Below are positions 1,734 through 24,290 of a stretch of DNA of 64,000 nt, piece after piece (within the stretch, counting starts at the first letter, position 1; each line of letters begins with the position of its first letter). Location: assembly GCF_014133895.1 (NCBI RefSeq), contig NC_050732.1:620001-684000 (forward strand), in the 5' to 3' direction. The stretch comes from Torulaspora globosa (lineage: Eukaryota; Ascomycota; Saccharomycetes; Saccharomycetales; Saccharomycetaceae). The notes below the pieces were generated by a model. That model was not told where the DNA came from. It saw nothing but the letters and a program-made list of their open reading frames with translations, and searched no databases. Made by a program: the position numbers and the translations under genes.

Positions 1734-2935
1734 GCATGCGGGACCTAAAAGCAGTGAGCCAAGACACCATGTCAATGATCGATAAGATTAGCGCAGAGGC
1801 GGCAGAAAGATAAGGGAACCGGCCATTTCGTTAATCTGGCTGCCTGCCAAAGCTGCCATATAATCTTCTCTATCATTGCCGTGGTGTCTCGCGTACATAA
1901 TCGCACGTCATTGCTTGTCTGCGGAGCTGCCGAAGCAGCAGGTGGACTTTCAAATAAATTGCTGAAACATTTGTAATTAGTCTCTAGTCTCAAGTTCCGT
2001 AAAGTGAGTCTTCTAGGCCGGTTCTCTGTGTTGCGTTCTGGCCAACGGAGTTAATGCAAGATGAAGTGTCACAAAGTCGAGTTCTGGCGCCAGCTTCAAA
2101 ACAAAAAAAAATATAACGATGTTCTTGTGGGTAAATAACGAGACTGGAACGCTGGAGTTTAGTCCATTTGAATTATCAGGCATATTGAAGTGACCGCTTA
2201 AGCCACCACAGGTTGTTTTTAAACCTTGCATCACCGCATCACCGCATCACAACATCACCACGCAACGCATATGCCAAAAGGTTACAGAGAGAACCCAGAT
2301 TTCGGTTTCTCGGCCATGCCAAGATCCCGACAGCGCCGACTCAATGTCAATGTCTGGGATGCTCAACCTCGCAAGACGAAAAGGCCAGAGGACGGACCAG
2401 AGGACGGACCAGAGGACGGACCAGAGGCCAGCCCCAAGAGGAAGGGAAAGACAGAACGTCTAAAGCTGAAGATGGACGTGATGGCTTCGTGGTTCAGTAA
2501 GAAGGCCAGGCAGATTGCACTAGTGCCCGATGAGCGCCAGCACAAAAAGGGCAAAAGGCATCACCTGCGGTTCTGGAAGAACCGGACGCAAGTAGCAGAG
2601 ACCACGCTCGTGTCTGCCACGGCTCACTCGACATCCGAGGCGCCCACTTCCTCGCATCACAGTTGCTTCAGCATTAACGATTGCCTATCGTCGCCGCCAA
2701 CTTTCGCCCTGTCGCAATCAGAGCTGGAGGACCCATCCTTCGAAGACACCTGCACCGTTATATACAGGCCGCTTATCTCGAGCCTTGATATGGACTCGGT
2801 GGAGCGGATGCAGCTTCGACTGAATACCGAAACAAGCGAAATGCTCCTACGCTGTGCGGACCTCACAGTCTCGCAGGGCGTTTACGCGACTGGATCGCGA
2901 CTGGACCACCGAGGATCAGAAGAAGCTGTCCCGCT
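1734..2935 (+). repeat. Left arm of 1.2-kb inverted repeat
   Basis: This segment reappears in reverse complement at 23089-24290 with the same length (1202 bp) and only about six base differences that I could find (2593, 2607, 2631, 2637, 2657, 2929). The poly-A run near 2103-2111 is also the same length. The arm starts at a GCATGC hexamer and ends just inside the 3' end of the ORF it carries. It contains about 540 bp of non-coding sequence followed by the ORF at 2271. A short GCATCACC-type tandem repeat lies at about 2228-2258, directly before that ORF. Confidence 0.95.
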
Positions 2936-2939
2936 ATAG
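2271..2939 (+). CDS. Unknown 222-aa basic protein, repeat copy 1
   Basis: The family is not recognised. The ATG at 2271 (MPKGYREN) is chosen because the open frame upstream has only TTG and translates a CAT-rich microsatellite. The N-terminal half is strongly basic. It has NPDFG near residue 8, three tandem EDGP units from a 12-bp DNA repeat (about residues 40-51), a MASWFSKK segment (about 71-78) and HHLRFWKN (about 97-104). The C-terminal half is Ser-rich and acidic. The second copy at 23058-23753 differs by a handful of residues and runs 9 residues longer, because the two sequences diverge at 2936. A different frame over the last part of this copy also stays open past the end (RAFTRLDRDW...), so the true ancestral C-terminus is uncertain. 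Confidence 0.55.
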   Translation: MPKGYRENPDFGFSAMPRSRQRRLNVNVWDAQPRKTKRPEDGPEDGPEDGPEASPKRKGKTERLKLKMDVMASWFSKKARQIALVPDERQHKKGKRHHLRFWKNRTQVAETTLVSATAHSTSEAPTSSHHSCFSINDCLSSPPTFALSQSELEDPSFEDTCTVIYRPLISSLDMDSVERMQLRLNTETSEMLLRCADLTVSQGVYATGSRLDHRGSEEAVPL

Positions 2940-3250
2940 CCAATGGTATGGGCCTGTCTTAGCGACCTAGTAACCGGTATGCCGTATTTTTTCCCGATTC
3001 ATTAATCCTGGAATTTTGAGTAATATCCCTGTCGACCCAGATCTTTTATGCGGAGGGCATGAAATTCCGAGTCTGATGATGAAAGGGCATTTAGAGTGCA
3101 CAGCTTGCTGTTCGGAATTGCAGTTGAAGCTTCAATTTAAAGCTTATTTTGATCTAATTCCCTTCATCATCCTGCAGTTTGCACTCTAGTTTCTTTGATT
3201 TGTCGTGTTCGTATATTTCCTGCCTAAGAACTAAAGTGGATGCGCCCGAA

Positions 3251-3910
3251 TCAGTTAACAGATACGTCATTCGTTAACAGGCTTACCGAATCATTAGTAG
3301 CGACTGATGGAAGCCTAAGATGATGTTTACTATTGACTTCCATTACGTTGTCGTCTAGTTCTAGTTCAAGAGCTGAGCCAGGAGGTGAATTCAGTGGAGT
3401 GGCACCGTAATCAGTCGGTTGCTGCTGCATTTGTCTCACTTTATTAACAATAAATTCTCTTCTAAATGCTCCCGGTACGTCTAGACCACTTGCTGTAGAC
3501 TTGCGTCTTCGGTTTTCTCGTCACTAACTATATCAGTGGTGTTTGCGGATTGACGTCTTGTCTTTCATATTTTTTTTGGTCGTAGTATCCTTAGAATAAC
3601 TCTTCTTTTTGTTTTTACTTCGGATCTTTTTATCCACTATCTTCTTATCAAAGTACCTTGCGATATGGTCTGTTTTCCGACAGATGGGGTATTTAATGGA
3701 ACGTAAGCGCCATTCTCTCCCATTTCACTTCTTGCGAGCTCTTTGGACATTGTAGATATATCAAGTCTCTACCAAATCATCACAGATGAATTCTTCTATC
3801 TTACCCGCTTCAATTTCATGTCGAATTCTAGCATATTCGCCTACCAATCCACGGACCAAGAAGCCACATCTTGATGAAATGTTGAAACTCAGGCCGAGAG
3901 ATCCCATCGG
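3251..3910 (-). pseudogene. Decayed retroelement Gag with CCHC zinc-knuckle remnant
   Basis: Reading the minus strand from about 3910 to 3251, one frame gives a long protein-like stretch broken by stops. At 3650-3691 it reads YPICRKTDHIARYF. This has exactly the CX2CX4HX4C spacing of a retroviral-type zinc knuckle, with the first Cys changed to Tyr and the last to Phe, each by one base. It is followed by a Lys-rich tail (KKIVDKKIRSKNKKK), as in many Gag nucleocapsids. Upstream of it, RGLVGEYARIRHEIEAG resembles the helical Gag core. Several stop codons show it is dead. No flanking LTR was recognised. Confidence 0.45.
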
Positions 3911-4864
3911 TCAATTGCTCCTCTTACTCTAGCAAAGTTCACTATGGGACGTACCTACCCGTCATGTATTTCACAACCTAATGCAGGATGCTAGGTGCAT
4001 GATTTACCTCAATTCCCGGGATGACATAATGATGTCCATAATAAACACTCGTCCTCTATTTCTTTCTTGGTTCACGGTGTAACGTTTCCTAGGAAGGATC
4101 CTTGCAGAAGTCTTTCATCCATCTAGTTTTGTAAGGTGAAGGTTCTCTCGCACCGTGTAATATGAATATGAATGTGGTCTATTTCCAAAATGGCTCTAAC
4201 AGATCGGATGTCTGAATATACCAATCGGAGACGAAGTTCCAGACGCTTTTCAGTCACAAACAACCGATGATCTTCGAAAGAAACACATCTCCAAAAGAGA
4301 TATCCAATTCCGGTGGTACAGGCAAAGCTTCCACTCGATCTAGTATCAGCATATGAACCAATCGGCGAATTGAAACGGATGATAGTTCCGACATTATGCA
4401 TAACATTGGTGCCTGAAAGTGAAGCTACTTGGACAAAACAGCCTTATCTTTAAGCTAATGTGGATCCAAAGCAAGACATGCACACTCATACTTGTTCGCT
4501 GCAAATTCGACGCCGTGGAGATTACCCTTTCTTAAAGCAGCATCTCGACATGATAAACGTATAAAAGCGAATTTTAAAGAACAGTCACCAAGATACTCCC
4601 TTGTGGATTTTAAAATCCGTAGATCTCAGCGTATGGTATTTTCTATATTCAGAAATATTATACATATTTCATACCAGTACAACTAGCCTAGTGTTTAATA
4701 CCTGCCACGGTTGAAGTTGATTACATCACCTAACAATTAAGACTCGTAGGCTATCAGAAATCCCAATCTGATCGACCAACTATCTCTTGTGAACAACTCC
4801 CAGTTGTTTTTTTTTTCGATCGGATTGCCGGGTGTCAGTATCCAACTTTGTGACGCTTTGTTCC

Positions 4865-4919
4865 TGAGTCACTATTTGTTTCTCTGTCACCGATAGATCG
4901 AGGAACTGGGATATAAAAG
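4865..4919 (+). promoter_or_regulatory. Gcn4-type site and TATA box
   Basis: TGAGTCA at 4865-4871 is a perfect AP-1/Gcn4 core, and TATAAAAG at 4912-4919 is a consensus TATA box. They lie about 200 and 155 bp before the ATG at 5071, a typical yeast distance. Whether Gcn4 acts here is inference. Confidence 0.5.
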
Positions 4920-5070
4920 GAGGACACAAATCCATCTGCTCTCTTTCTTGATGTTAAATCATCTGTTGCACTTTTTTTTTCTCTTCTAGATGGATAAGAA
5001 AGAAACTTCATTCGAACTATTCTTTCTATTTCATCTTTTTAATTAATCCAATACTTAATTTCCAACAAAA

Positions 5071-7071
5071 ATGTCCGTTTACGAGGTTAAGTACAATACA
5101 TCTGCTTCTGACCCATGGGCACCTTTTAACGAAGCAATCAAAAGAAGGCAAGAGAACCCTGAATCATTCAACGGTCAAGAACAAGTTCCATGGCCATGGA
5201 TAGATGAATCGGAAAATGAAAACGTCCAAATAGTGTTTGAGCAACAGGGATCATTAGCCGATGAAAATCAAGGCAATCAGACTACACAGGAAGAATTCAG
5301 TGGGCAAGGAAATGCATCCGATTCTGAGGACTGCGAAAACCGCGAATCTGAGTCAGACAGCTCCAGGTACGACGACTCTGACACTGATGAGTCCGAATAC
5401 GAGGAATACGATGGACCAGACGATTACATTACTGATGTTTTCGACATCACCAACGTCAATCCTGCCGTTGAAGACGCTATCGCTTATTACAACAAAACGG
5501 GCGCTAACCGCCGCACTCTTGAGCATAAAAAAGAGCTGGCGGCTATTATCAATAAACAAAGAGAAGACTACTACTCTCCACCTTCGAATGATGATACTAC
5601 AGCATCGAATGATTCTGATTCTTCGCAGGAGCTACCTGTGTTTCCATTACCACCTTACAATCCTTTGTTTGATGATATCAGGCAGAAGCGTTCTGAAAGG
5701 AGGCTCCAATTTGGAACAACTAGGGTAATACGATTCAAGAGGAGTGATATTGTTGCTAAGGATGGTTCAACGGTTCCAAAAGATAAATTGCCAGGCAAAT
5801 CAATTCTAAAGAATGAGAAAGATCAGTTTGTGACACCCAATCATGATTTCGAATTGGTGGGCGAAAGCAAACTTTTTACAGCTATTGGAAGGCTATACAA
5901 TCTATGTGACATGCCTTTGGAGTTTCTAAACAAGAATGCGCCGGTTCATTCAACTGAAAATTTGGCCGCCGGTTTTGCAAATGCATTCAAGACTCAGCAA
6001 CTTTGCTGGAAGCGTATGAGCGAGGAAGCAGTCCGCGTTAGAGTTGAAGCACTAAAGAAGCGTAAAACGGAAATAGAAGCGCTCAAGCTTGAGAAAGACG
6101 CTCTAAATGTGGAGGTTGCTGAGCTCAGACAAATGTTGCGGGAAAAAGAGATTAACTTGGAGGATGTGGTAAGGAAAAGCCGCATTGATCTAAGTTTAGC
6201 AGAAGAGAAGAAGCAGGATCTGAAACAAGCCATTGTCCAAATGGAAGCAATAAAACTGGACTTGCTACAAGTTAGGTCAATGGCGGATGAGCTGCAGGTT
6301 GAGAATGACGCTTTGAGGAAGGAACTCAAGAGCTGTCAAAATAATCTGCAGGAACAGAAAGAAGTCAGTAAGCCTCTTCTCATAAAGATCAAAGAACTGG
6401 AGGCAAGAGTACTAAAGGAACAAAAGTACACGGTTGACAGTCAGCAAAAGCTAGCGTTCTTAGAGCGCTACAGGAGGGAAAGTTTCGTGTTGCAAAAAAA
6501 AATTGAAGACCTCGAGGAATCCAACAGGAAGCTTGTTAGTGAAAGTGGAAAGCTTCAGGAGGTAAATGATGATTTGCTTCGCCAAAGCAACCTCTTGAAG
6601 AATTCCCTAACACTTACTGTTGAGAACTTGAAGACGTCAAACAAAAGAGAAGCCGAACTCGCAAAGGCAAACAAAAATCTGGTCAAACAGCTAGATGAGT
6701 CCAATGCGAATGTCAGGCGCCTTGTCGACACGAATACTGCTTATAAGGCAAAATTCCACTTGAAGTACCAAGAGTTCGAAAAAAGGTACGCTCAAGCGTG
6801 GGCGGACTGCAATAATAGACGCAAAGAAATCGAGAAAACCAAACTCGAGATGGAGAAAATGGGTGGGACCCTGAGAGAAACGAGAAAAGAGATGGCCAGG
6901 AAAAGGGGGCATAATACAGTCAGTATTTGTAGCGCAAACATGGTAGTACACGAACCGCCCATTGACGTGTCAACAGCCCAAAGTTCTCACGTCAAGAGGC
7001 GGCATCGAATATTCCAGTCGCTCACAAATAGATTTTATTCTTCCCCTGTGATTAACGCTGGAGAAGTTTAA
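5071..7071 (+). CDS. Coiled-coil protein with possible PP1-docking motifs
   Basis: A 666-aa protein I cannot assign to a named family. The N-terminal third is acidic and low in complexity (about residues 75-120 rich in Asp, Glu and Ser). Next comes a basic linker with RVIRF (218-222) and KSILK (243-247), which fit the RVxF and SILK docking motifs for protein phosphatase 1 (Glc7 in yeast). A conserved-looking segment follows at about 265-310, then a long heptad-rich coiled coil (about 315-620), then a short basic tail. The layout is what one sees in spindle-pole, kinetochore or prospore-membrane scaffolds such as the MPC54/SPO21 and CNM67 groups, but I see no diagnostic match. ATG 5071 has an A-rich context and a good TATA box upstream. 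The frame is intact, so the gene looks functional. Confidence 0.75.
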   Translation: MSVYEVKYNTSASDPWAPFNEAIKRRQENPESFNGQEQVPWPWIDESENENVQIVFEQQGSLADENQGNQTTQEEFSGQGNASDSEDCENRESESDSSRYDDSDTDESEYEEYDGPDDYITDVFDITNVNPAVEDAIAYYNKTGANRRTLEHKKELAAIINKQREDYYSPPSNDDTTASNDSDSSQELPVFPLPPYNPLFDDIRQKRSERRLQFGTTRVIRFKRSDIVAKDGSTVPKDKLPGKSILKNEKDQFVTPNHDFELVGESKLFTAIGRLYNLCDMPLEFLNKNAPVHSTENLAAGFANAFKTQQLCWKRMSEEAVRVRVEALKKRKTEIEALKLEKDALNVEVAELRQMLREKEINLEDVVRKSRIDLSLAEEKKQDLKQAIVQMEAIKLDLLQVRSMADELQVENDALRKELKSCQNNLQEQKEVSKPLLIKIKELEARVLKEQKYTVDSQQKLAFLERYRRESFVLQKKIEDLEESNRKLVSESGKLQEVNDDLLRQSNLLKNSLTLTVENLKTSNKREAELAKANKNLVKQLDESNANVRRLVDTNTAYKAKFHLKYQEFEKRYAQAWADCNNRRKEIEKTKLEMEKMGGTLRETRKEMARKRGHNTVSICSANMVVHEPPIDVSTAQSSHVKRRHRIFQSLTNRFYSSPVINAGEV

Positions 7072-7873
7072 CTCTGCGGTAATCGCTTTCTTGCTTATTT
7101 ACCTCGTCTCTTTGCAGGGTTGCCCATTGAATAAGATCGTTGCTCTATTATTGCAGTTCGTGCAACTCCTGAATATCATAGCTTGGCCTTAACCGCAGTA
7201 ATTGTTCCGCTCACTCTCCTTCAGTTCTTTGATACCTCTTCTGTCTGCTCTCCCTGTAAGAGCTGTAAACTAAAACTTCTCGTTTTCCCGCATCTTTCTA
7301 CCAGTCCTTGGCATGTATATTGGTATACCTTTGTATTTTAAAATCTTTTCTCAACTCTCTATGGGATCCATAGGTTAGGTGAAGCTTGACATACCTTCTA
7401 CAATTTGACGTAGCTCAATTGGCTTGTTAGGCCTGCGACGCTCATATTGACCGGCTAACCAACTTCTCCATAGACTGCAATTTTAATCAGCAAGCTTTTA
7501 CCCTACCACCATAATTTCGCACAGCGGCAAATGCCAATATGATCTGAAATCATAGCGCATCAGATATAACGAAAACGAACGGCCGCTTTCTTTCACCCCG
7601 CTGATAACTCATTCTTTTTTTTGCAATAAGGCTGCCTTCGATACTAGCAATTGAAGCATCTACTCAGCTTGGTGATCCGCCTGCCATATTCTCATACCTC
7701 TGGATGTAGGCTTGATGGTGATAAATCTGCCGCACAGCGCATTTTAATTTCCAGTCACGTACTAGCAATTTCCTAGTAAGCAAAAACCCGAAATTTCTAT
7801 TCGGTTTTCCTGTTTCATTCTTCAGGCCATTTGTCAAAGCCTGAATCACTTCTCAAGTTCATCGCGGGAGCCG

Positions 7874-8430
7874 CTAAAGGGTATCGCTATTGTGTGTGTC
7901 AAACCGTGTCTGCGAGACGTGGAATGATTCTATAAAGCTCAGAAACGAGCACAATTCGTGAATCTTGTTGACGTCATTCACATATGAAGTGCACTCCTTG
8001 TCTCCCAGCGGAGTTGCTTCATCTTCAAGCTTTTGTCGTACCTTCGCAAACTTGTTATGGTAATTGACTGCGTTAGTCCGCAAAAGAGCTCCGAGCCGTT
8101 CCAGCATCATTATGCGCTCTCAGCAAACCCTACCTCTTTTTCTGAGGTCTTTCTTAGCCTGCAGGATTTTATCATTGCAGAAATTGATTAAAAAATATCG
8201 AATCACTCTTTCCACTCTGGGAATCCACTCACTTCCCAGAAAGAATTCGACGCTCCACAGCACTGTTTCTTTCTTCTCTGTTCCTCCGCGACTGCTTGAT
8301 CAGTTTGTCTACCAATGGATACATGTGAGCCAGATTCTTCGTTTGAGGGCTCATATACAACAACTGCTGCTGCTGCTATTTCCGCTATTGCTTTTATTGA
8401 TGATTCATAGCACCCGTCAGTTCTGATTGG
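7874..8430 (-). pseudogene. Broken coding relic, unknown family
   Basis: On the minus strand, about 8430 to 8210 reads as a protein-like stretch (SSIKAIAEIAAAA, then an acidic part with QAVAEEQRRKK). A second frame from 8110 to 7874 opens with an ATG and reads as a helical, charged 78-aa piece (KVRQKLEDEATPLG). The pieces are in different frames with stops between them, as expected for a decayed gene. The family is unknown. The alanine-rich part loosely recalls the C-terminal half of the 365-aa ORF at 21232, but this is not enough to claim homology. Confidence 0.25.
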
Positions 8431-8780
8431 TGCAAGGGATAGCTGAGGATGTTTACTCTTTAGTTCAGTATCTTGTGTGGCTATTAGCGAGGACTACCTT
8501 TTCGTGTGACATGAGCACCAGCTCGGCGGCTAATTCGCAAAGATATCGTAAGATAACTTAATGTAAACGATGCTCGGCTTTTTGGAAAGATGTCAAACTA
8601 CTCGTGGCACCATCTTCTAGGGATTTGTCAACTTACGTTACCTCCTTTAAGTCGCCCTCGTAATCAAAGCGAATCATATGGCCTTCGAGCACATCCCTTT
8701 CTCATTTGAAGGTTGCACTTGGTGAGTTAAGGTCCCGATAGTAATGTGCTAGAATCCTCGAGTGCTTGAGAAACCCAGGT

Positions 8781-8838
8781 TCACAGGCTTGCTGGACATT
8801 AGAGCCGGCGTATAATGCTCCAATTCAGTTGTAGAAAC
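8781..8838 (+). repeat. Short third copy of repeat-arm flank
   Basis: About 57 bp here (from TTCACAGGCTTGCTGGACAT through CCAATTCAGTTGTA) match the reverse complement of about 23026-23082 with roughly four substitutions. In the right-hand locus this sequence lies immediately outside the end of the 1.2-kb repeat, over and just past the 3' end of the 231-aa ORF. In both places one frame reads FT-G/A-LLDIRAGV or LLDMRADV and then a TAA. The match shows that a relative of the repeated locus once extended here. Confidence 0.7.
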
Positions 8839-9576: not shown

Positions 9577-12500
9577 TCAAAAGTCCGAGTCTGAACTCAA
9601 TAAAGAATCCAAATCATCTGCTCCCTTCGCTGGGACATCAGTCATCGTACTATGCCGCGGTTCTGTCGTTTGATAGCAGTCACATTTTACCATTACGGAA
9701 GGTTGTACGTGACTTTGGTTGACAATGCCACTTTGAATGCCTCTTGCAATGCATTTGGTGCGATTCATCTCAATGGTCCTATGTGTTCTATTTTGCCGCA
9801 GTTCTTCAAATAGCTGCAGAATTTTCTGGTTGAGGATACTGTGATCAACTTCTGCGCACTTCGTACTTCGCACGAAATTAGGTATGGTCGCTATAGACAC
9901 AGCGTCATCAGGTGAATAATGTTGCAAAAAGTATTCGCGCTCGGAACTGGTCAACAAACCTCCATGATTGCGTTCATCGGCGTCTTCTAAGGTGTTTCTT
10001 TCAGGTAGCTTGCGATTTGAAAAAGCGGATTTTGTTTCAATAGAGATAGATTTCTGCCTCTTCGATGCCGGCGTACTGAGCCCATCGTCATCTATTTTGC
10101 GACTCAGATTTATGCCATCCGATGCATCACTAGTTACCTTTCCAGTAGGGATTTCGTCATCCTGTTCATCTTTAATCTTGTCGCTTGTTCTTCCGATGAG
10201 TGACGGCAGCTTCATCCTTGTAGCGGGACGGGCGAGCTCGGTAAAGCTAAAATCCTTGGGTTTATCCTTTGCGCTGGATGGTGTTTCGACAGAGGTGCTC
10301 TCATTACGGTCGATACTCTCTTTGCATCTGATATCATCATCTAAGCGATTTTCAGGTAATTTGGTCTTCGTCACTAAATCCATGGCTGTGACAATACCAC
10401 CATCGACGTTATCCGGCATAAAAAACCGCTTTTCTCTTTTAGGTTCCTTCCCCTTAGCCCTTTTCTTTGCTTTCGGTTTCTTACCCAACATGCACTGTGT
10501 GGCGTAACGAATCACCTCTTCAGTGTCCTCCATTTTATTAACCTCCAGAGCTTCCTCATCAAGGTTAATATGCTCTTTGCGACACACTGGCTTAATATTG
10601 GGCGGTATAATTCTATCTGACTTCGTATAAGTTAAGTGATTTTGACAAAGAAGTCTTTGTAGACCATAGTAGTCTTTCAAAGCTTGCTCAAACTTAAGGG
10701 ATTCATTACTGCTGAAAAGCAGAACTATTTTCCCGTCTCTCTTTCTACCAGTTCTCCCCATCCGCTGTATATTCTTTATCGGACTACTGGTTGTGTCGTA
10801 GCAAATAATGAGATCAACCTCACCTATATCCAACCCCTCCTCACCAATCGAAGTGCACACCAGAACATTGTATTCACCAGTTTTGAACTTTTGGATGACC
10901 TCTTTCTGTTGTTTTTGAGTCATGCCTTTTATCTGAGCATCTTCAGAGCTGCCCGTCCGCCTAGCATCTCTTTCTAACTGCTCCTCCTTCTTTTTCTGCT
11001 TCTTTTGTTCTTCAAGTTGTTTATCTTCCTCTTGTCGCTTCATCCTATCTGCCTTTTTCCTTCCCTTGGGTTGATTTTTTCTTGTAAATGTCACCTCGTC
11101 GAAACCTTCTTTCCCTTTCGCTTGTCCAATAAATATATGAGGTCTTATTCTGTAATTGGACCCAGGTCCATTCATTAGATCGACGCATTTGACAATTTCT
11201 AAGGCACTCTCTCTCAGCTCCGTAAAGATAATCACTCTTGAATCTAAACTGTCCTCCGAAAAAAAGTCTGTGAGCTCTTCTCTGACATGACGCAGCTTGG
11301 GATGACTCAAAAATTGGGGGTTTGCCAGAAGAGCTTCACATCTTTTCATCATTGTTATCAAGATAGGATTGAAGTAAAACTCTGCTGCGATCTTGTTCGT
11401 CGATTTACCCAGGCTATACTTTGTGGTAAACTCTCTATACTTATCCATGAAGTAGTTGTAGAAGGTGCTTACTCCGTAAATCTTGATTCGTTTCAACATT
11501 TGCCCCACATGATTCAATAGCTGCAAAATGAAGAAATTCCTCCACTTAACGCCCTCCGGTATGCTGGGATTAGCAATGATCTTTTGACTTTGCTGCATTG
11601 CTTTGAAAGCATTGATCTGGGATGGGTCGCAATCTTCGTAAATATCCAATTCGACGGCTTGCCTGAGAACAGGGAGAACTGCTGCGCCAACTTGCTCTAT
11701 TAAGTCTTCGATTTCCGAGCTGACAGCGACCTCTATCTTTAACCTCTCCTTCTTTCTCATGTACCGCACGATGTCGATGCTCTCTTCTGTTCGTGCCTCG
11801 ACCTTCGATATTTCTAGATTCTTTATAACCTCCTGCACACCTTCCAGGTCTGAACCTGGAGTTGCGGTTAATGCAAGCACTCGATATGAAGTGTTAAACC
11901 TGCTGATGAATTTTATAATGTTGGTGTATGCGTATGAACCGGTGGCCCGGTGTGCTTCATCAAGTACAATACATATAATTTCTTTGGGATGCAAAATGCC
12001 TCTCTTAAGATCATTCTCAACCACTTGTGGTGTTGTAAAAAACACTCTTTTTTCGTTCCAGATTTGCTCTCTGTTCTTCCTTGACTTATCTAACAAGATC
12101 GCAGTTTTATCTTGAGGAATGCCAGTGATGCCCAGGCAAGCTTTAATTTGCTGTGCAACTAATGGCCTCGTAGGAGCCGTGAAAATGATCTTGCCCGATT
12201 GAGTCCACCTGAAAAAATTCAACATCACGGTACTAGCTATGAAAGTCTTCCCCATACCTGTCGGAATAGCACAAAGGACATTTTGAAATAGAGCCTTCCG
12301 GACGATATCAAACTGATATTCTCGTACCTCGAAATTTGTTGGATAAATGAATTGCTGAAGATTCTCATGGCATAACTTGTGATGAGTTGGTCCAAACGTG
12401 ACATCGTTTCGGATCTCTTCGTAAAATGCTTGCTGTCCTTCTATCACTTTGCCATTTAAGTCGGTTTGCAAAGCCTTCGGTTTTCGTATTACTGCTTTTC

Positions 12501-15700: not shown

Positions 15701-16574
15701 CTGTTGGTTGTTGGCTTGCATCTGCGTCTCGCATCGAATTAATATTACCGAGTGGAGAGGCAGGTCCTGCTTGGGGCATGGAATGGCCACTAGTTTTGTT
15801 GACGGACGCCGCATCGGTGCCTGATACCCTAGTGATAACGGCTCTCTGGTAACTCCTCTCATCCAAATAGAAAATGGATAAATCCCAATTGATCAATTGT
15901 GGTACATGACCGTCAAAGGCCTGCATGTACGTATTTATTAATGACTTGATAAAGACAGTTCTTTCCTTTGCAGAGTTTGTCTCCCAGTAGTACTTTTTCC
16001 CCATAGTCAAAGCGAAGCCTTCATCGACCTCAGTATCTCGCTCAACTCTTTTAAGTTCCTTTAAATCCCAGGTTCTACCAATCTGAAATGAGCCATCCGT
16101 ATTTTCACGTCCTTTGTGCAGCTGGATAGCGTTAGGACTGTCGGGCTTAGAACTCAAAATTAGAATTCTCTTTTTCTTGTTCTGCAGTTGGGCGTTTGGC
16201 GGTGGTCTCGAGCTTGGTGATTTTGCATCTTCAATAATCCTTACGTGTGTGATGTAGTTATTTGGTGCCCCAGAGTTTCTATCATACATTGTGAAGCAAC
16301 TGCTTATAATGGCCTTCCTATCCCGCTCGTACTGCTCTGCTAAAAAGTTTGAGCTTTGAGAGGACCTTGAAGAGTTTGACGTCGTTCTTCGATGAGAAAC
16401 ATGAATGCCAGACACCGGAGGCGCATTTCCCATACTGTTGCCGCTCACATTACGTGCATGCTTCGCCGAGCCGCTACCTGAGATTATCCTTTTATGGACC
16501 GATGAAGGTTTCTCATCAGTGGAACCTTCCCTGCTGTGTGAAAATTTCTTGAAAGGGGATCTGGAGCTCTTCAT
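12780..16574 (-). CDS. SEC3: Exocyst complex subunit Sec3
   Basis: Sec3 is a landmark subunit of the octameric exocyst that tethers secretory vesicles at the bud. The product is 1264 aa (S. cerevisiae about 1336). An N-terminal Ser-rich part is followed by a PH-like domain at roughly residues 75-235 (KKRILILSSKPDS; KKYYWETNS), known in the family to bind PI(4,5)P2 and Rho GTPases. A variable acidic linker (about 240-560) leads to the long helical exocyst rod to the C-terminus. The first ATG is at 16574; the open frame extends seven codons upstream only from GTG. Divergently placed from NTF2 across about 250 bp, as YER008C and YER009W are in S. cerevisiae. Confidence 0.95.
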   Translation of the reverse strand: MKSSRSPFKKFSHSREGSTDEKPSSVHKRIISGSGSAKHARNVSGNSMGNAPPVSGIHVSHRRTTSNSSRSSQSSNFLAEQYERDRKAIISSCFTMYDRNSGAPNNYITHVRIIEDAKSPSSRPPPNAQLQNKKKRILILSSKPDSPNAIQLHKGRENTDGSFQIGRTWDLKELKRVERDTEVDEGFALTMGKKYYWETNSAKERTVFIKSLINTYMQAFDGHVPQLINWDLSIFYLDERSYQRAVITRVSGTDAASVNKTSGHSMPQAGPASPLGNINSMRDADASQQPTANLLHRAPYSNSPTIAEASKRYSSSQHENEGKPVAEGDGLNHMVTTDEPSFIDKNLDAMSKASVERQALSSARSSPSKDGYSSQSQGGASGNRRDHLLEDLNNVLASEIQYVSEAASNLEPGPLRPKEESFVHEDFSKESPPLVAKVESIVEDIRYEPMAFGDQDLDLNETISNEGDTTNDLSFERGDEVRHSQVLEPGSSHTYHEVSTIQEEVQFGTDRIAKDKMFPALEADRASDSKGPQMKKKAWDIEDEEILEILTDVNWGAEDDADNLIERLNSKIAEAEYNFNNSLLSLEKLALDLRPYEQNVARECDKLNPILSLFLMEMSNVSGDIEYVESQHNGLQVESANKKQLWNTLSELLNTVSLDEDSLGELLNCPIAERYLAKMEGQLRALFKALKAINGEEDEEHYNLGQMRALKHRRETYEKVTKVFLERLVNEMVGKFVNISIDELSEDHLTSFLSRLLRFSSLILFCKDVSPDSYKYLIEKWNGTICEVYNKMCQSVLRELELLKATLPSREKRTINEEPGLADLLSEWKHIKSKEIPRTKVSTSSELVGSLRKAMETFERWVIVYQNFIDNFFHICSKLDFEEFLTRFAAAESRTAQLLEIRGMQPDRTSAAVETQLVSKIFQPITARISSGLIEVLKCDRSIAPALMISLEREIKSLESSNAEFLVSALSRLLSQVIQVWSDYVDDQVMYMQRIRINVSSRSLLPSVIELPLFIKNSQDFIRETELELQMDDEDAFETRKIFEAACSKMSNCLADLFTTKNNDTKDLLDAAEAAETVPSESGNIDRTITLLMNCHWLLEILALLNSRGIFDNSLREAKSVFDVEKDNYASYLLRDSMPKLTSFIHGASNLIASTPTDRMVDPSKWAAYSKHNLEIILSSYTSHEIDTLVKRLHGYMLAHFANEPDESIKKALFDKIWSCIQGQTVSLYLRLYTLIEKHYKGTYVKFTKNDIITAFESYKKQHV

Positions 16575-16821
16575 TTCTGCTGCCCAAGCTCGCACACCGT
16601 AGACCCAAAGCTTAATTCTTCGCAGCCATCAATTCATTGAGTTGCTTACTGTTTACTAGTCCCCTATGGCCGATTTTTCGATCTGAGCAGGGTAAGTTAC
16701 AACCTCGTTCATCAAATTTTCGAATATTATGAAGGTTACGCAAATCTTTCAATTAGATCGAGGCCCATTTACTGCAATTGGCTATCATTGTCTTTCAACT
16801 AGCAGCTCATATTATTTATCT

Positions 16822-17199
16822 ATGTCCCTTGATTTCAACGCTTTGGCTCAACAATTCACCGAGTTCTATTACAACCAATTTGACACCGATAGAAGCCAAT
16901 TGGGCAACCTTTACAGGAATGAGTCCATGTTGACCTTCGAAACTAGTCAATTACAAGGTGCTAAAGACATTGTAGAGAAGCTGGTCTCTTTACCTTTCCA
17001 AAGGGTTCAACACAGAATCACTACTTTGGACGCCCAACCTGCCTCTCCAAGCGGCGATGTTCTTGTGATGATTACTGGCGATCTGCTGATCGATGAGGAG
17101 CAGAACCCTCAACGTTTCTCACAGGTTTTTCATTTGATTCCAGATGGTAGCTCCTACTATGTGTTCAATGATATCTTTCGTTTGAACTACTCTGCTTAA
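16822..17199 (+). CDS. NTF2: Nuclear transport factor 2, RanGDP import carrier
   Basis: Ntf2 carries Ran-GDP from cytoplasm to nucleus through FG nucleoporins. Starting at the ATG at 16822 gives 125 aa, the same length as S. cerevisiae Ntf2 and beginning [17 protein letters not shown]. The frame is open farther upstream (ATG at 16729), but those residues have no counterpart. The whole protein is one NTF2 cone-shaped fold; [10 protein letters not shown], the QRVQHRI strand and the C-terminal [10 protein letters not shown] are hallmarks. No intron is seen. It sits between SEC3 and AIM21, forming the interleaved YER/YIR order. Confidence 0.97.
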
Positions 17200-17430: not shown

Positions 17431-19461
17431 ATGTCTTCCGATGACGTCCCAAGAATCCCTGAGAGGCCACAGAGGGTTAGAGGTCATCGTTTGACTGAGG
17501 AGATCAGCCAGGAGAAGTTTCCACTACCATCTTCTGCGGAAGCAGACTTAGCAAAGGCTGAAGGATCGGAATTGCCCAAGATTCCAGGCCACAGGCCCCA
17601 GCGGCTGAAGAACAGCTCATCATCTCCAGTACTTCCAGTCTCAAAACCTCATGAATCCTCTGATCTGAAACCATCAGTCCCAGGGACACGACCCAATCGA
17701 GAAAAGAAGGAGAACATGCGTGAAAATGGTGGCATCACTAAAGATGAGGGATCTCAGAGCCGTCAGGAGAGTTCAGATCATGAACCGACACCACAATTGC
17801 CTGCCGCCCGCCCGCAGCGACTGAAGAGCACACCCGCAACAACGGCGGTGCCCTCAACCGGACCATTAGCTACTCTTAAGACCGTGGCAAGTACTGATGA
17901 AGTGGAGAGGTCAGAAGAACCTCTAGATCAAAGTTTGAAACGAAGCACAACGGAAAATTTAGATATGCTTGTGCAGAATACCAGCGAGCAGTTGAAAGAA
18001 ATGGAAATGCTTTTATCGAAGCGTGAAATGGCTCCGGTGCGTGGAAATTCGCTAATCAAGCCTATAGAAGTTGCTGACGTAAGTTCGGATAGGAGACTGA
18101 TGCCCGAGAATCCGGAACAGAAAAGTACTGGCCCTAATGATGGTTCTAAGACCGAGACTCAAGCCGCTTCGAAATCAGAGTCCGACGAACCGCAGTCATC
18201 AGCGGCAGAGAACGATAGAGAGGAGGTCAACCGAGAACTACTCCGAGAAACGGAACAGAGCGAAAGTACCGCAGAAGAACATCCTGAAGAAGTGCATGTA
18301 ATGGAGGCTACAAATCAGGGCGAAATGAAGGGGACGCAGCCAGAAAGGGAAGTGAGTCCTGATGAGGAGCCGCCGACGACGTATTCAACCAAAGCTCAGG
18401 CAAACCTGAGTTCCCTTGACGAGCAGGAAGTCGCAGAATTCACTAAAGACTTTACGCCAGCTCCAGAGCTCGATCATCTTTCATCAGATAAGGTTGAAGA
18501 GACGAAAGGAGGAGATATTTCTTCGGAACTGGCGCCCTCAGTTTTCGAGGAGACAGAGGTGCTGTCACAAAAGTCAGACCACTCAAGTATACCATCTGCC
18601 AAACGGGCTGCACCGCCAGTCCCCAAAAAACCATCATCACGAATAGCCGCTTTTCAGCAGATGTTGCAGAATCAGCAGCTTGAGCAGCTGCAAGGCTCAA
18701 TTCCTTTCCGACCTCATGAGTCACCTCTATCTATGGAATCAGGCACAGGCGGAGCTCCAAACTACCACAGAAAGGCGTTGAATGATGAAAGAGCTCAGTT
18801 TGGCAAGAATCTGGGCACGTTGTTTGCAAATCCAGATATGGTGACTGGATCCTCGATCTCTACCGATAGAAGAACGGAAGGTAATAAATTGGAAGAACCT
18901 AATGAGAATAGTACAAGAACCCCCTCTGAAAGTCAGCAGCGGAGAGCTCGAGGTCCGCGTGGACGCAAGTTACCATCGCTGGTGGCAAATGTCGAGAAGG
19001 TCAAGACTGAAAATAGCAATGACATTGAGCTATTCCACATGTGGACAATAGTGAGTAATAACCGGGACGACAAAAATACGAAGGAAGTGCTTAAGGACGA
19101 TTCTGGACAGAAATCTGCTCAATTGTCAGAAGGAAGAGGTGCATTCGAGATTTTGAGCGATGGAACGCAGGAGAGGCGTCCGTCTGTACTTGAAGATCCA
19201 AGTCAGCCAATGGTCGGGTCCCAAGAGACTGTGAACGAAAGTGAAGACTTGGCATTCGATGAAACCCCACAAAAGCTCATGACACAAAGTGCTTTTAATT
19301 CGAAGGAGGTTCACCAAGTGAGGTCGAGCGCGAAACAAGAACTCGAAGAGAATCTTGAGGAAACAGCAAATATGAAGCCAGGGCACAAGGAAGCTCAAGA
19401 ACAAAGTATCGATGACAAGAATGGGGCAGACTACTCATTCGACCTGGAGCAGGAACTGTAG
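17431..19461 (+). CDS. AIM21: Cortical actin patch regulator Aim21
   Basis: Aim21 works with Tda2 at actin patches to restrain barbed-end assembly and binds SH3 domains of patch proteins. The product is 676 aa from the ATG at 17431 (S. cerevisiae 679). The N-terminus carries repeated proline motifs of the form IP/LPxxRPQR (RIPERPQR, KIPGHRPQR, VPGTRPNR, LPAARPQR) within the first 145 residues. The middle is acidic and disordered, with VPKKPSSRIAAFQQML near residue 395 and GRKLPSLVANVEKV near 515. Identity rests on the motif pattern, length and placement before DJP1, as in YIR003W-YIR004W. The open frame extends five codons upstream from a TTG. Confidence 0.88.
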   Translation: MSSDDVPRIPERPQRVRGHRLTEEISQEKFPLPSSAEADLAKAEGSELPKIPGHRPQRLKNSSSSPVLPVSKPHESSDLKPSVPGTRPNREKKENMRENGGITKDEGSQSRQESSDHEPTPQLPAARPQRLKSTPATTAVPSTGPLATLKTVASTDEVERSEEPLDQSLKRSTTENLDMLVQNTSEQLKEMEMLLSKREMAPVRGNSLIKPIEVADVSSDRRLMPENPEQKSTGPNDGSKTETQAASKSESDEPQSSAAENDREEVNRELLRETEQSESTAEEHPEEVHVMEATNQGEMKGTQPEREVSPDEEPPTTYSTKAQANLSSLDEQEVAEFTKDFTPAPELDHLSSDKVEETKGGDISSELAPSVFEETEVLSQKSDHSSIPSAKRAAPPVPKKPSSRIAAFQQMLQNQQLEQLQGSIPFRPHESPLSMESGTGGAPNYHRKALNDERAQFGKNLGTLFANPDMVTGSSISTDRRTEGNKLEEPNENSTRTPSESQQRRARGPRGRKLPSLVANVEKVKTENSNDIELFHMWTIVSNNRDDKNTKEVLKDDSGQKSAQLSEGRGAFEILSDGTQERRPSVLEDPSQPMVGSQETVNESEDLAFDETPQKLMTQSAFNSKEVHQVRSSAKQELEENLEETANMKPGHKEAQEQSIDDKNGADYSFDLEQEL

Positions 19462-19693
19462 AAGTGCTCTAGATCTGGTATAAGACCGAAAACTCCACGT
19501 CGTAGATAGTGCTATTCATGTTTATGTTACCCTGTTGATTTCTGTAATCAAAGTATTCCTCCTAGAGCTTCAGCGGAATACCGAAGCTTACGGGACGAAT
19601 GTTCGATCGATGAGTATAATGAGCTTTCTTTGATACAAGTAACTCCTTTCTGATAAATTTGGGAGGTTTACACGAGAGCTTTGTTCTGTTCCT

Positions 19694-20938
19694 ATGGTGG
19701 TTGATAATGAGTACTATGAGCTGCTAGGTATCAAGTCTACGGCTACTGCAGTGGAAATTAAGAAAGCCTATAGGAAGAAATCGATCGAAGAACATCCCGA
19801 TAAAAATCCTAATGATCCAAAAGCTACTGAAAGGTTTCAGGCGATTTCTGAAGCTTACCAGGTGTTAAGCGATAATGAACTACGAGCCAATTATGATAAA
19901 TTTGGTAAGGAGAAGGCAATACCTAAAGGCGGCTTTGAAGATGCGGCCGAGCAATTTTCTGTAATATTTGGTGGAGATGCGTTTGAACCATATATTGGAG
20001 AGTTGACTTTACTTAAGAATTTGCAACGACAAGAGGAGTTGCAAGCCCAAGAGGATGCCGAAAAGGAGAAGGAGAAGAAGAAGGAGGAGCAACAACAAGC
20101 CGAAAGCAGGAAGGCAGCTGAAGCACAACCTTCTGAAGAAGCCTTGAAAGCCCGTATGGATAACTTGAAATTGTACAACAAGGACGAAAATGTGAAGGAG
20201 GCTTCGAAGAAGACAAAACTGGAGGAATTTGAAGAACAGCTGAAAATAGAGAAGGAGAAAAGCGTTGAAATTCTCGCGAACAAGTTAATAGAAAGGCTTT
20301 CAATCCTAACTGAAAGTGTTTACGATGACGCATGTAAAGATTCATTTGCAAGGAAGTTCGAAGAGGAAGCAAACCTTTTAAAGATGGAATCCTTTGGATT
20401 AGATATTTTGCATACTATAGGGGATGTTTACTGTGAGAGGGCGCGGATTTTTCTTGCTTCAAACACGGTGTTCGGTTTTGGAGGTATGTTCCACTCAATG
20501 AAAGCGAAGGGAGGCGTCTTCATGGATACACTCAGAACCGTGTCGGCAGCGATTGATGCTCAAAGCACCATGAAAGAGCTGGAAAAGATGAAAGGTGCTA
20601 GTGAATCTGAGGCACCGCTACTCGATAAAGAAGGTAACGTCATTGCGAAACCTACAGCGGAGGAACTGGCTCATCAGGAGCAACTATTGATGGGTAAAGT
20701 ACTATCTGCTGCATGGTACGGCTCCAAATACGAGATAATGTCTACTCTAAGGACCGTTTGCGATAGAGTTACACATGATAAAACTGTCGATAAAGAGACT
20801 AGATTCAGGAGAGGAGAATCCTTACTTCTTTTAGGAAAGGTTTTCCAAAGAGCATATAGAACGCCAGCTGAGCAAGAAGAAGCCCAAGTCTTCGAGCAGT
20901 TAGTGGCTGAAGCGACGAAAAAGAAGCGTCACATTTGA
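19694..20938 (+). CDS. DJP1: Cytosolic J-protein for peroxisomal import
   Basis: Djp1 is a cytosolic Hsp40 that assists peroxisomal protein import and some mitochondrial outer-membrane targeting. The 414-aa product has an N-terminal J domain (about residues 5-72) with the catalytic HPD at 34-36, then GGFEDAAEQFSVIFGGDAFE. A charged KEKE-rich linker (about 115-200) precedes the conserved X-domain (about 205-390: ERLSILTESVYDDACKDSF, FHSMKAKGGVFMDTLRTVSAAIDA) and the tail ATKKKRH. CAJ1 (YER048C) is the closest relative, but position after AIM21 and the C-terminal sequence favour DJP1 (YIR004W). Confidence 0.95.
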   Translation: MVVDNEYYELLGIKSTATAVEIKKAYRKKSIEEHPDKNPNDPKATERFQAISEAYQVLSDNELRANYDKFGKEKAIPKGGFEDAAEQFSVIFGGDAFEPYIGELTLLKNLQRQEELQAQEDAEKEKEKKKEEQQQAESRKAAEAQPSEEALKARMDNLKLYNKDENVKEASKKTKLEEFEEQLKIEKEKSVEILANKLIERLSILTESVYDDACKDSFARKFEEEANLLKMESFGLDILHTIGDVYCERARIFLASNTVFGFGGMFHSMKAKGGVFMDTLRTVSAAIDAQSTMKELEKMKGASESEAPLLDKEGNVIAKPTAEELAHQEQLLMGKVLSAAWYGSKYEIMSTLRTVCDRVTHDKTVDKETRFRRGESLLLLGKVFQRAYRTPAEQEEAQVFEQLVAEATKKKRHI

Positions 20939-21231: not shown

Positions 21232-22329
21232 TCACGCAATACTTAGTTGTAATGTAGATGCCCTGCTATGCTGGCTGGTGGATATTCTATCCAGTCGGGT
21301 GCTGTGAAACTTGTAGATGTCATCCTTGCAAGAGGGAGTTGGAATCGCTCTCAGCTTCAAGTGCATCTTGTATGCTGCTGAGTTCCTATCTAGTTGTTGC
21401 ATAGGAATATATTTCAGGCGTCGAAAATAGGTCGGATCATCTTTATGTTTGAAATGCTCATTGAAAACCCTTTGGATTTTCTTATAATCCTGGTTTGCTT
21501 GTGGAGAAATAATAGAAGCTGCCGCTATTGCTTTCGAGCTGTACATAGCAGCATTTGCGATACTTCCATGGCTTGCGTTGATATCCTGCTTTGCTTTATT
21601 AACTCGAGCGAAGGCAGCGGTTGTTGCAGCGACAGCGAATTTCAAAGCTCGAATTTTCCTTCGATATTCACCAAGTCTAGCGGCTTCTACCGCAGCTATG
21701 CCAGCTAGACATCTTGAGCGAGCAATCCGAGTCGTAATTGCAGATTGTCGAATTTCCAGGATGGAATCACTATGTCCATGCCTTTTCTCGTTCAACCAGA
21801 ATCTAACCTTGTGTCGCGGTGGGCGCTGGAAGACAATAGTGTCACTGACGGCACTTCTTGATGATTCAACTTTTCTCTCTTCGTCGAATGTTCTGTTGTC
21901 GCCTTCAGTTGAATTTGACCAAAATTTAAACCGACGTGTTCGAATGGAGGAGTCATTCGAATAACTTGGGCTAAGTTGGCTGTCTGTTTTGGGCAATATT
22001 CCGTGAGCCTCCAGACTATCAACGGAATATCGATCATCGTCGCTAGTCAAATAATAGGCTTCTGTGTCGGAACTGCTAGATTTGGGTGCAGTGCCGCTTT
22101 TTTTGCGAAAGCTTTGGAAATATAGTTTAATACCTCTTCTGAATCTTCTTTTGGAGCGCACCTGTGTGCTAACCGAATTTCTCAGACTTTCTGAGGAGCT
22201 ACAACTGTCTCTTGGAACTCCTGTTGACAATCGCATAGAAAAAGCCGTGCGGCCAGTCGAGAGTTCAAGATCATCTTCGCTCTCAAAACCCGATTTTTGG
22301 ACCTTTATTGAGTGAAGAGCGGGCTGCAT
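21232..22329 (-). CDS. Unknown 365-aa basic protein, lineage-specific
   Basis: The family is not recognised. The N-terminal half is Ser-rich with short basic-aromatic motifs: RSKRRFRRGIKLYFQSFRKK (about 58-77), RRFKFWSNS (132-140) and HKVRFWLNEKRHG (173-185). KVRF fits the RVxF phosphatase-docking pattern. From about 195 to 295 it is alanine-rich and helical (IAAVEAARLGEYRRK, SSKAIAAASIIS). A basic tail follows. It lies between DJP1 and the right repeat arm, where S. cerevisiae has IST3 directly after DJP1, so it occupies a lineage-specific insertion. The RFW-type motif is shared with the repeated ORFs at 2271 and 23058 (HHLRFWKN), suggesting a fast-evolving family. The ATG at 22329 opens the frame. 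Confidence 0.6.
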   Translation of the reverse strand: MQPALHSIKVQKSGFESEDDLELSTGRTAFSMRLSTGVPRDSCSSSESLRNSVSTQVRSKRRFRRGIKLYFQSFRKKSGTAPKSSSSDTEAYYLTSDDDRYSVDSLEAHGILPKTDSQLSPSYSNDSSIRTRRFKFWSNSTEGDNRTFDEERKVESSRSAVSDTIVFQRPPRHKVRFWLNEKRHGHSDSILEIRQSAITTRIARSRCLAGIAAVEAARLGEYRRKIRALKFAVAATTAAFARVNKAKQDINASHGSIANAAMYSSKAIAAASIISPQANQDYKKIQRVFNEHFKHKDDPTYFRRLKYIPMQQLDRNSAAYKMHLKLRAIPTPSCKDDIYKFHSTRLDRISTSQHSRASTLQLSIA

Positions 22330-23057
22330 CCTACCGAATTAATCTGTTTTTGACTTTTGATTGCAATGCGTTGGTACTGTCTTGCTTTCCAAGAATCCTA
22401 GCTTTGACCCTCTCAATGGATATAAGAACCCACTAGAATTCGCTCAATTTTAAGAAGTCCACAGTTCTAAAGCTCTCATTACTTTATTTTACACAAGTCC
22501 AATTACACATTAGCGCCCACCTGCCGCACGAGTTTTCTCGGCGCGTCACAAATTCGAACAATGACGCTGTTTGTACTCCGAGATGATCAAACTGTATAGA
22601 GTTTTCACAAAATTAATCAGCAATCAAAATCAACATCAAAAGACTTGACTGATTGCTTAGTGCAATCTTAGCTAATAAAGAATAAAGACTCCTGGAAAGA
22701 CCTGCAATTTCTATGACAGCATTATGTGACCCATAGAAAAAGCACAAAGCTCTGATATTTGAACGATATCGCCAGAAGCCAGTTTTAAGAGACCTAATTA
22801 CTATCCTGTGGATGATGAGAAGTCTGTATCTGGTATTTGACCCGCATGACCCGCATGAACCGCTCAATCGGCTCACATCAAGCAACACCATGTGTAGCGA
22901 AGAGATACCGGAGTGCCCGTTTAAAATTGTCTCATCGCTACTGAAAGAAAGTTAGGTAGTTTCCTCATCTCTCCATCTTGTCTCAGATTTGTTAAGTAAT
23001 CTGTCTTCGGAAGTCCTTCTGTTTGTACAACTGAATTGGAGCATTATACGTCGGCTC
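22330..23057. other. Spacer between unknown ORF and repeat-borne ORF
   Basis: There is no convincing gene. The first about 250 bp are the likely promoter of the 365-aa ORF. A 92-codon minus-strand frame (22613-22891) has no recognisable family. The part from about 23026 is homologous to 8781-8838. Confidence 0.45.
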
Positions 23058-23753
23058 TCATGTCCAGCAAGGCTGTGAAACTGATGTGAGCGGGGCAGCT
23101 TCTTCTGATCCTCGGTGGTCCAGTCGCGATCCAGTCGCGTAAACGCCCTGCGAGACTGTGAGGTCCGCACAGCGTAGGAGCATTTCGCTTGTTTCGGTAT
23201 TCAGTCGAAGCTGCATCCGCTCCACCGAGTCCATATCAAGGCTCGAGATAAGCGGCCTGTATATAACGGTGCAGGTGTCTTCGAAGGATGGGTCCTCCAG
23301 CTCTGATTGCGACAGGGCGAAAGTTGGCGGCGACGATAGGCAATCGTTAATGCTGAAGCAACTGTGGTGCGAGGAAGTGGGCGCCTGGGATGCCGAGTGA
23401 GCCGTGGCAGACACGACCGTGGTCTCTGCTGCTTGCGTCCGGTTCTTCCAGAACCGCAGGTGATGCCTTTTGCCCTTTTTGTGCTGGCGCTCATCGGGCA
23501 CTAGTGCAATCTGCCTGGCCTTCTTACTGAACCACGAAGCCATCACGTCCATCTTCAGCTTTAGACGTTCTGTCTTTCCCTTCCTCTTGGGGCTGGCCTC
23601 TGGTCCGTCCTCTGGTCCGTCCTCTGGTCCGTCCTCTGGCCTTTTCGTCTTGCGAGGTTGAGCATCCCAGACATTGACATTGAGTCGGCGCTGTCGGGAT
23701 CTTGGCATGGCCGAGAAACCGAAATCTGGGTTCTCTCTGTAACCTTTTGGCAT
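23058..23753 (-). CDS. Unknown 231-aa basic protein, repeat copy 2
   Basis: Second copy of the ORF at 2271. From the ATG at 23753 it reads MPKGYRENPDFGF and carries the same EDGP triplicate, MASWFSKK and HHLRFWKN. Differences from copy 1 are Val/Ala, Leu/Val, Thr/Ala and Glu/Gln in one short stretch, a Val/Ala near the end, and a different C-terminus: this copy continues past the repeat edge into TSVSQPCWT before stopping. Five of the six base changes fall within 65 bp. The equal reading frames argue for recent duplication or ongoing gene conversion, but do not by themselves prove that the protein is used. Confidence 0.55.
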   Translation of the reverse strand: MPKGYRENPDFGFSAMPRSRQRRLNVNVWDAQPRKTKRPEDGPEDGPEDGPEASPKRKGKTERLKLKMDVMASWFSKKARQIALVPDERQHKKGKRHHLRFWKNRTQAAETTVVSATAHSASQAPTSSHHSCFSINDCLSSPPTFALSQSELEDPSFEDTCTVIYRPLISSLDMDSVERMQLRLNTETSEMLLRCADLTVSQGVYATGSRLDHRGSEEAAPLTSVSQPCWT

Positions 23754-24290
23754 ATGCGTTGCGTGGTGATGTTGTGATGCGGTGATGCGGTGATGCAAGG
23801 TTTAAAAACAACCTGTGGTGGCTTAAGCGGTCACTTCAATATGCCTGATAATTCAAATGGACTAAACTCCAGCGTTCCAGTCTCGTTATTTACCCACAAG
23901 AACATCGTTATATTTTTTTTTGTTTTGAAGCTGGCGCCAGAACTCGACTTTGTGACACTTCATCTTGCATTAACTCCGTTGGCCAGAACGCAACACAGAG
24001 AACCGGCCTAGAAGACTCACTTTACGGAACTTGAGACTAGAGACTAATTACAAATGTTTCAGCAATTTATTTGAAAGTCCACCTGCTGCTTCGGCAGCTC
24101 CGCAGACAAGCAATGACGTGCGATTATGTACGCGAGACACCACGGCAATGATAGAGAAGATTATATGGCAGCTTTGGCAGGCAGCCAGATTAACGAAATG
24201 GCCGGTTCCCTTATCTTTCTGCCGCCTCTGCGCTAATCTTATCGATCATTGACATGGTGTCTTGGCTCACTGCTTTTAGGTCCCGCATGC
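23089..24290 (-). repeat. Right arm of 1.2-kb inverted repeat
   Basis: Reverse-complement copy of 1734-2935 with no length difference and about six substitutions. It begins within the 3' end of the 231-aa ORF (after the divergence point at 23089) and ends at GCATGC (24285-24290). The arms face each other across about 20.2 kb that contain MPH1, SEC3, NTF2, AIM21, DJP1 and three unassigned ORFs. Confidence 0.95.

Follow-up and report, generated by a model that had tools for sequence, protein, structure and literature searches.

An inverted pair of fast-evolving genes near a probable centromere of Torulaspora globosa, best read as homogenised by gene conversion

We analysed a 64,000-nt stretch of the Torulaspora globosa genome (C6:620001-684000, that is, contig NC_050732.1 in a genome of 9.28 Mb and eight contigs), hereafter the window, in which two 1.2-kb inverted repeats, here called the arms, face one another across an interval of 20,153 nt. 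We consider it probable that the arms represent an old pair of copies, opposite in orientation, of a fast-evolving, probably sporulation-expressed gene, which lie near the probable centromere of C6 and have been repeatedly homogenised by gene conversion. The arms and the gene copies within them are as follows (aa, amino acids; ORF, open reading frame).

1734..2935, plus strand: left arm, promoter and 222-aa ORF through the final base of its last codon, with the stop outside (repeat and genome search)
2271..2939, plus strand: left copy of the arm gene, 222 aa, its stop codon just past the junction with an insert
23089..24290, minus strand: right arm, promoter and 231-aa ORF minus its final 31 nt (repeat and genome search)
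23058..23753, minus strand: right copy of the arm gene, 231 aa

The arms are gapless reverse complements of 1202 nt each that differ by exactly six substitutions (at 2593, 2607, 2631, 2637, 2657 and 2929), five of which change the protein; the initial annotation, made from the letters alone, had placed them at the same coordinates, with equal lengths and about six differences. It had also proposed a search for further copies of the 1202-bp arm and, when the left arm with ~100 bp on each side was compared with its own genome, at least two places were found, namely the two arms (counts from our genome searches are lower bounds, since the best candidates alone were scored). Each arm consists of ~540 bp of upstream sequence followed by nearly the whole ORF. 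An origin as tRNA-based repeats was rejected, as ARAGORN detected no transfer RNA in the arms and no Rfam family reached its gathering score there, and a chance origin of the repeat was likewise rejected.

The right-copy protein matched no Pfam family. In a comparison of the arm protein with ~5.8 billion proteins, the hits at E <= 0.001 were two proteins of a second T. globosa assembly, HG537 (tags 0F03760 and 0F03830), and no others; the word-based search would miss distant relatives, and the window's own two arm proteins are not among the matches listed. The arm proteins are 98% identical within the window and 80% identical within HG537, with 63-64% identity between the genomes. This is the pattern of concerted evolution, in which the pair is shared and copies are more alike within than between genomes, here at the protein level and for two genomes. 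Window and HG537 are 63% identical in the arm protein versus 88% in MPH1, a gene of the interval. By these comparisons, the arm gene appears to be fast-evolving and duplicated, with matches at E <= 0.001 confined to T. globosa.

The locus tags of HG537 place this pair in a matching setting. MPH1 carries tag 0F03770, next after 0F03760, and if the tags step by ten, as those encountered do, five are left before 0F03830; going by the numbering, these would be filled by four further conserved genes of the interval (SEC3, NTF2, AIM21 and DJP1) and a 365-aa gene. With relatives at matching HG537 tags, the arm pair appears to be older than the split between HG536 and HG537. Between 0F03760 and MPH1 no tag is free for a 666-aa gene that occupies this place in the window, so that the DNA carrying it, an insert described below, appears to have been gained in the window's lineage alone.

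Within the window's own genome, the sole further scored match to the arm protein was the N-terminal part of a 565-aa ORF (C6:586610-588307), a weak similarity (E 2.7e-4) for which hhalign gave a probability of 48. The C-terminal part of this ORF is in turn 44% identical to that of a 408-aa ORF just outside the left arm, and on the strength of these links the arm gene may belong to a small, fast-evolving local family. The 365-aa ORF gave an hhalign probability against the arm family of 6.7, which is not significant, despite a similar-looking short motif, and the AlphaFold prediction for the 565-aa protein proved uninformative (mean predicted local distance difference test score 35.7).

Evidence for gene conversion comes from the distribution of differences along the two copies and from an insert that has split the left one.

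2593..2657, plus strand: 65-bp island with five of the six arm differences, read as an unconverted patch
2936..8775: mosaic insert of 5.84 kb splitting the left copy
2936..3264: part of the insert with 66% similarity to a stretch of C1 that lies ~24 kb in from its left end
3367..3518: part of the insert, a 152-bp fragment of a 713-aa ORF of C4, 98% identical
4738..8773, plus strand: part of the insert, 96.6% identical to C3:564767-568808
5071..7071, plus strand: 666-aa coiled-coil-like ORF, a dispersed gene with copies on C2 and C3
8776..8842, plus strand: left 3' tail of the repeat, 5.84 kb from its own arm and 91% identical to the right tail
23016..23083, minus strand: right 3' tail, joined to the right arm across a 5-nt gap
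8776-8842 and 23016-23083: the two tails as a small second inverted pair (BLAST, 91% identical)

The small pair (8776-8838 and 23021-23083), which the initial annotation had not listed and on which our account of the history turns, is the sole other inverted repeat of at least 60 bp in the window's first 30 kb, and its left member runs in the same direction as the left arm, displaced by 5.84 kb. The identity between the arms breaks off at the edge of the insert, the similarity to C1 starts exactly at 2936, also when the query reaches 936 bp further left, and the similarity to C3 stops at 8773. The DNA in between looks foreign to the locus, and these edges are most simply explained if a mosaic was inserted into the left copy and split it.

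Five of the six arm differences fall within 65 bp (P about 2e-4 under random placement), and four of these five alter the protein, while the remaining 1137 bp of the arms hold one difference (0.09%). The tails differ by five mismatches and one gap in 68 columns (~9%), a density like the 5/65 of the island, which is itself biased upward because the island is delimited by its own differences. As the C3-like part of the insert has diverged by ~3% from its C3 relative, compared with 0.09% for the arms outside the island, the insertion probably preceded the last homogenisation, assuming comparable rates. The near-identity of the arms is thus best read as the result of recent gene conversion, a reading that this patchwork supports well.

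The history that we propose would begin with a duplication before the HG536/HG537 split, after which the copies would have diverged to roughly 8-9%. The 5.84-kb mosaic would then have inserted near the 3' end of the left copy, detaching its tail, and a recent conversion would have run from the outer end of the homology to the edge of the insert, with one 65-bp patch left untouched. In such a conversion, a break in one arm would be repaired from the other arm, and a minority of repair events would be expected to end in crossing-over, thereby flipping the 20-kb interval.

Because the Centroid genes of Saccharomyces are expressed in middle sporulation (PMC9731477), we tested the promoters for the Ndt80 element gNCRCAAAW, which PMC1326232 describes as having been searched for at -80 to -400. 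Each arm carries a site of this type.

2068..2075, plus strand: site GTCACAAA, resembling a sporulation element, 203 bp upstream of the left ATG and matching 8 of the 9 places of gNCRCAAAW
23949..23956, minus strand: the same site in the right arm

Six candidate promoters were compared, those of the arm gene and of ORFs of 408, 565, 365, 666 and 560 aa, none of which reaches the Pfam cut-off; they were fixed before the controls were widened and stand for nine promoters, the two arms being counted once and three 664-666-aa copies once. The wider control set comprised 74 further ORFs, mostly without mutual overlap and each 150 aa or longer, from 181 kb of DNA. At -400 to -81, the core GNCRCAAA was present in 6/6 candidates versus 1/74 controls (Fisher P 2e-8) and the full gNCRCAAAW in five of six versus one of 74 (P 1.5e-6). 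The contrast was weaker over 600 bp upstream (full motif 5/6 versus 2/74; core 6/6 versus 5/74), although none of 2000 shuffles of the six promoters matched either count. In an earlier control set of 39 C6 ORFs of at least 220 aa, the full motif was found within 600 bp in none and the core in three, and the bare core CRCAAA is common (21 of the 74 wider controls). The stretches common to candidate promoters measure 14-24 bp, and the element lies at the same upstream place in three close copies of the 666-aa gene. From this promoter motif we predict that the arm gene is probably expressed in sporulation.

We also looked for point centromeres, and the candidate nearest to the repeat lies outside the window.

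C6:608907-609063: centromere-like site lying ~11 kb to the left of the window, the distance between its CDEI- and CDEIII-like ends being 157 bp

This site is 12.7 kb from the left arm and 35.2 kb from the right arm, the latter measured to the outer end. A point-centromere pattern occurred at 10 places, versus 9 for its backward control, and a second pattern at 10, versus 11. AT content, measured for all 20 pattern places, singled out two of those found with the first pattern, C4:765827 (0.78) and C6:608907-609063 (0.71), both 157 bp long, the other eight ranging from 0.46 to 0.56; with the second pattern, the same C4 and C6 sites again ranked highest in AT content (0.78 and 0.72, versus 0.48-0.64 for the others). 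The C6 site is flanked by IRC22-like (TRAP-alpha) and SGN1-like (RRM) genes, and a YIL001W-like gene (BTB/ankyrin) and an INP51-like gene (phosphoinositide phosphatase) adjoin these, neighbours which, by their S. cerevisiae gene names, we take to be those of CEN5 and CEN9. Sequence and synteny together make C6:608907-609063 a probable centromere. The long ORF of the IRC22-like gene overlaps the site only through an N-terminal stretch ahead of its second methionine, a stretch that is probably spurious.

In this arrangement, the locus recalls the flip/flop region of Saccharomyces chromosome XIV. In that region, as described in PMC9731477, inverted repeats of 4.2 kb carrying Centroid genes enclose an interval of 24 kb near CEN14, the arms comprising YNL018C/YNL034W (Centroid) and YNL019C/YNL033W; the arms are homogenised within species, and the orientation is polymorphic between strains. 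The same paper reports three Centroid genes in T. delbrueckii and describes the family as mostly singletons of 212 to 1,291 aa that tend to lie near centromeres. Both systems have an inverted pair beside a centromere (at 28 and 58 kb there, at 12.7 and 35 kb from the probable centromere here) around an interval of similar length (24 kb there, 20 kb here). In both, the arms consist of the promoter and ORF of a fast-evolving gene, which is sporulation-specific there and has a sporulation-type promoter site here, and are more alike within a genome than between genomes; furthermore, one arm is interrupted by inserted DNA, in three strains in the Saccharomyces case (PMC9731477). In T. globosa we find two long, near-identical inverted copies around unique genes, both within ~60 kb of a probable centromere, the distance expected of Centroid genes.

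The differences from the region described in PMC9731477 are also clear. The T. globosa repeat lies in another chromosome region among other neighbours, its arms measure 1.2 kb rather than 4.2 kb, and each holds one gene, neither a tRNA nor a partner gene for a transmembrane protein having been found there. Its insert was not recognised as a Ty element, and inversion was not observed. By analogy, then, the T. globosa locus probably works like the Saccharomyces flip/flop region, and the repeat most likely adds a further, independent case to those of the flip/flop type; we make no claim of Centroid membership. Two other systems are less close. The mammalian inverted repeats cited in PMC9731477 are likewise kept similar by conversion around an interval that may toggle, but contain other genes, and toggling has been shown there. 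The mating-type inversion of Ogataea (Hansenula) polymorpha (PMC4238957; also cited in PMC9731477) also involves a flippable yeast interval between inverted repeats, whereas here no mating-type-like Pfam match was found among 20 scanned window proteins and there was no sign of regulated switching. No published account of the T. globosa repeat was found in the literature library that we searched. The inversion interval of Ogataea polymorpha is similar in size.

The arms are suitable in size and identity as substrates for a flip, and by analogy an inversion of the 20-kb interval is plausible. It is a stronger proposition that the arms cross over with one another, inverting the interval, at a rate high enough to keep both orientations segregating in T. 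globosa, and this we regard as possible but somewhat doubtful. At 1.85 kb per tag, as calibrated on contig C2, the arms would be expected at tags 337-349 if HG537 ran in the same direction as the window and at 162-174 if it were reversed; the actual tags are 376 and 383, a rough fit by which, from tag order alone, the interval appears to have the same orientation in both. The S. cerevisiae gene names imply this same orientation of the interval genes too, which speaks against frequent flipping. So do the shorter arms of T. globosa (1.2 kb) and the experience with the Saccharomyces region, which did not flip in ~53,800 mitoses and 950 meioses (PMC9731477).

A recent duplication, in which one arm was lately copied to a second site and the six differences are young mutations, would account for the 99.5% identity with its sharp ends and for the 233-bp outer flanks, which share no residual similarity (score 18; shuffled mean 16.9, maximum 25). 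We nevertheless consider it improbable, because HG537 holds a diverged pair of relatives at matching tags, beside MPH1 and six tags beyond MPH1; in addition, the tail beyond the insert has diverged by 9% although it is continuous with the right arm, and five of the six differences are clustered. Accordingly, of the two explanations of near-identity offered by the initial annotation, recent duplication and continuing gene conversion, it is conversion that stands, given the diverged HG537 pair and the patchwork in the window. An assembly artefact, a second arm having been pasted in through collapse or duplication of one repeat, might be suspected from the near-identity of the arms, but is very unlikely given six differing sites (five of them protein-changing), flanks that are unlike on both sides, a separate tail repeat and a two-copy counterpart in another assembly. 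Finally, the equal length of the inverted ends might suggest terminal repeats of a large mobile element carrying the 20-kb interval, an origin that we rejected as scarcely credible, since neither a direct target-site duplication (3-12 bp) beside the two outer ends nor a third arm copy among the best candidates scored in the genome search was found, while the interval contains mainly conserved housekeeping genes and possible relatives of the arm gene lie nearby on the same contig.

Several observations weigh against the interpretation of the arms as an old, repeatedly homogenised pericentromeric pair of sporulation genes. The DNA of the locus comes from one sequence, HG537 being represented by its proteins and tags, so that its pair is inverted only by presumption. 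The two HG537 proteins are 20% apart, so that homogenisation has not been equally recent in both strains, and no inverted isomer was found in the two assemblies, both apparently in one orientation. Both centromere patterns are no commoner than their backward controls, and the C6 and C4 sites are distinguished by AT content and equal length alone, together with, for C6, a synteny with S. cerevisiae that is based on gene names. Alone of the six candidates, the arm promoter lacks the last base of the motif, and the six represent about three families (arm/408/565, 365 and 666/560 aa) and so are not fully independent; counted by family, the core is present in 3/3 versus 1/74 (P 5e-5).

The interval and its flanks contain the following further features.

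493..1719, plus strand: 408-aa ORF, ending 14 bp before the left arm
9255-9419: U4 small nuclear RNA gene
9577..12585, minus strand: MPH1 (Pfam domains and named relatives)
12780..16574, minus strand: SEC3 (Pfam domains)
16729..17199, plus strand: NTF2 (Pfam domains)
17431..19461, plus strand: AIM21 (Pfam domains)
19694..20938, plus strand: DJP1 (DnaJ and DnaJ-X domains)
21232..22329, minus strand: 365-aa ORF with no Pfam match, single in the genome search, with a sporulation element upstream
24917..29122, plus strand: PAN1-like gene on the right outer flank (EH domains)

The five conserved genes named in the initial annotation were all recovered through their Pfam domains and, for MPH1, also through named relatives; the interval in addition carries the 666-aa ORF, the 365-aa ORF and the U4 gene, which that annotation had not listed. 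Further along the window, two tRNA-Thr genes lie inside identical 83-bp stretches (39380-39462 and 50854-50936), and a stretch at ~51209-51362, by the second of them, recurs beside a tRNA-Arg gene of C3 and at ~C6:585618-585856; our guess is that it is perhaps a solo long terminal repeat.

The ~665-aa gene carried by the insert is itself a candidate for a Centroid-like family. Its copies at window 5071-7071, C3:565109-567100 and C2:1148781-1150772 are 93-95% identical, and a 29% relative lies at C3:585442-586749. The C2 copy matches protein HG536_0B06230, and the HG537 relatives listed in the protein collection, which is clustered at 90% and may therefore hide close copies, are 0B06180, 0F03570 and 0G04590 (chromosomes B, F and G). 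On C3, the copy and the 29% relative bracket a centromere-like site at ~C3:574473 that is without a CDEI-like element. A pericentromeric position is less evident for the C2 copy, which adjoins a REC8-like gene: the surrounding 30 kb of C2 yielded no centromere-like site. Also next to the C2 copy is an ORF of 913 aa in which a hAT transposase dimerisation domain was recognised (L017:7039-9780; C2:1152039-1154780). On the minus strand of the window, ~7890-8430 matches an ORF of 213 aa which, next to the C2 copy, is uninterrupted (L017:2345-2986); the counterpart in the insert seems degraded, since it has stops in all three minus frames, and was apparently copied along with the 666-aa gene. The 152-bp C4-like fragment sits in non-coding DNA of the insert and is perhaps a templated insertion scar; the 713-aa ORF from which it derives looks like a transporter gene, a label taken from reading its sequence rather than from a family scan.

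PMC9731477 leaves open why the Saccharomyces arms are homogenised and why Centroid genes lie near centromeres. A second case, in another genus and among other neighbours, would turn both into comparative questions. We suggest, tentatively and with the odds somewhat against it, that genes of the Centroid type repeatedly and independently form homogenised inverted pairs by centromeres, the C6 locus being a second, non-syntenic flip/flop region. The insert here provides an internal clock, in that it leaves a tail beyond the reach of conversion beside an arm still within it. If the suggestion holds, this class of sporulation genes, or else meiotic pericentromeric chromatin, would itself give rise to pairing and homogenisation, which would then be no accident of Saccharomyces chromosome XIV.

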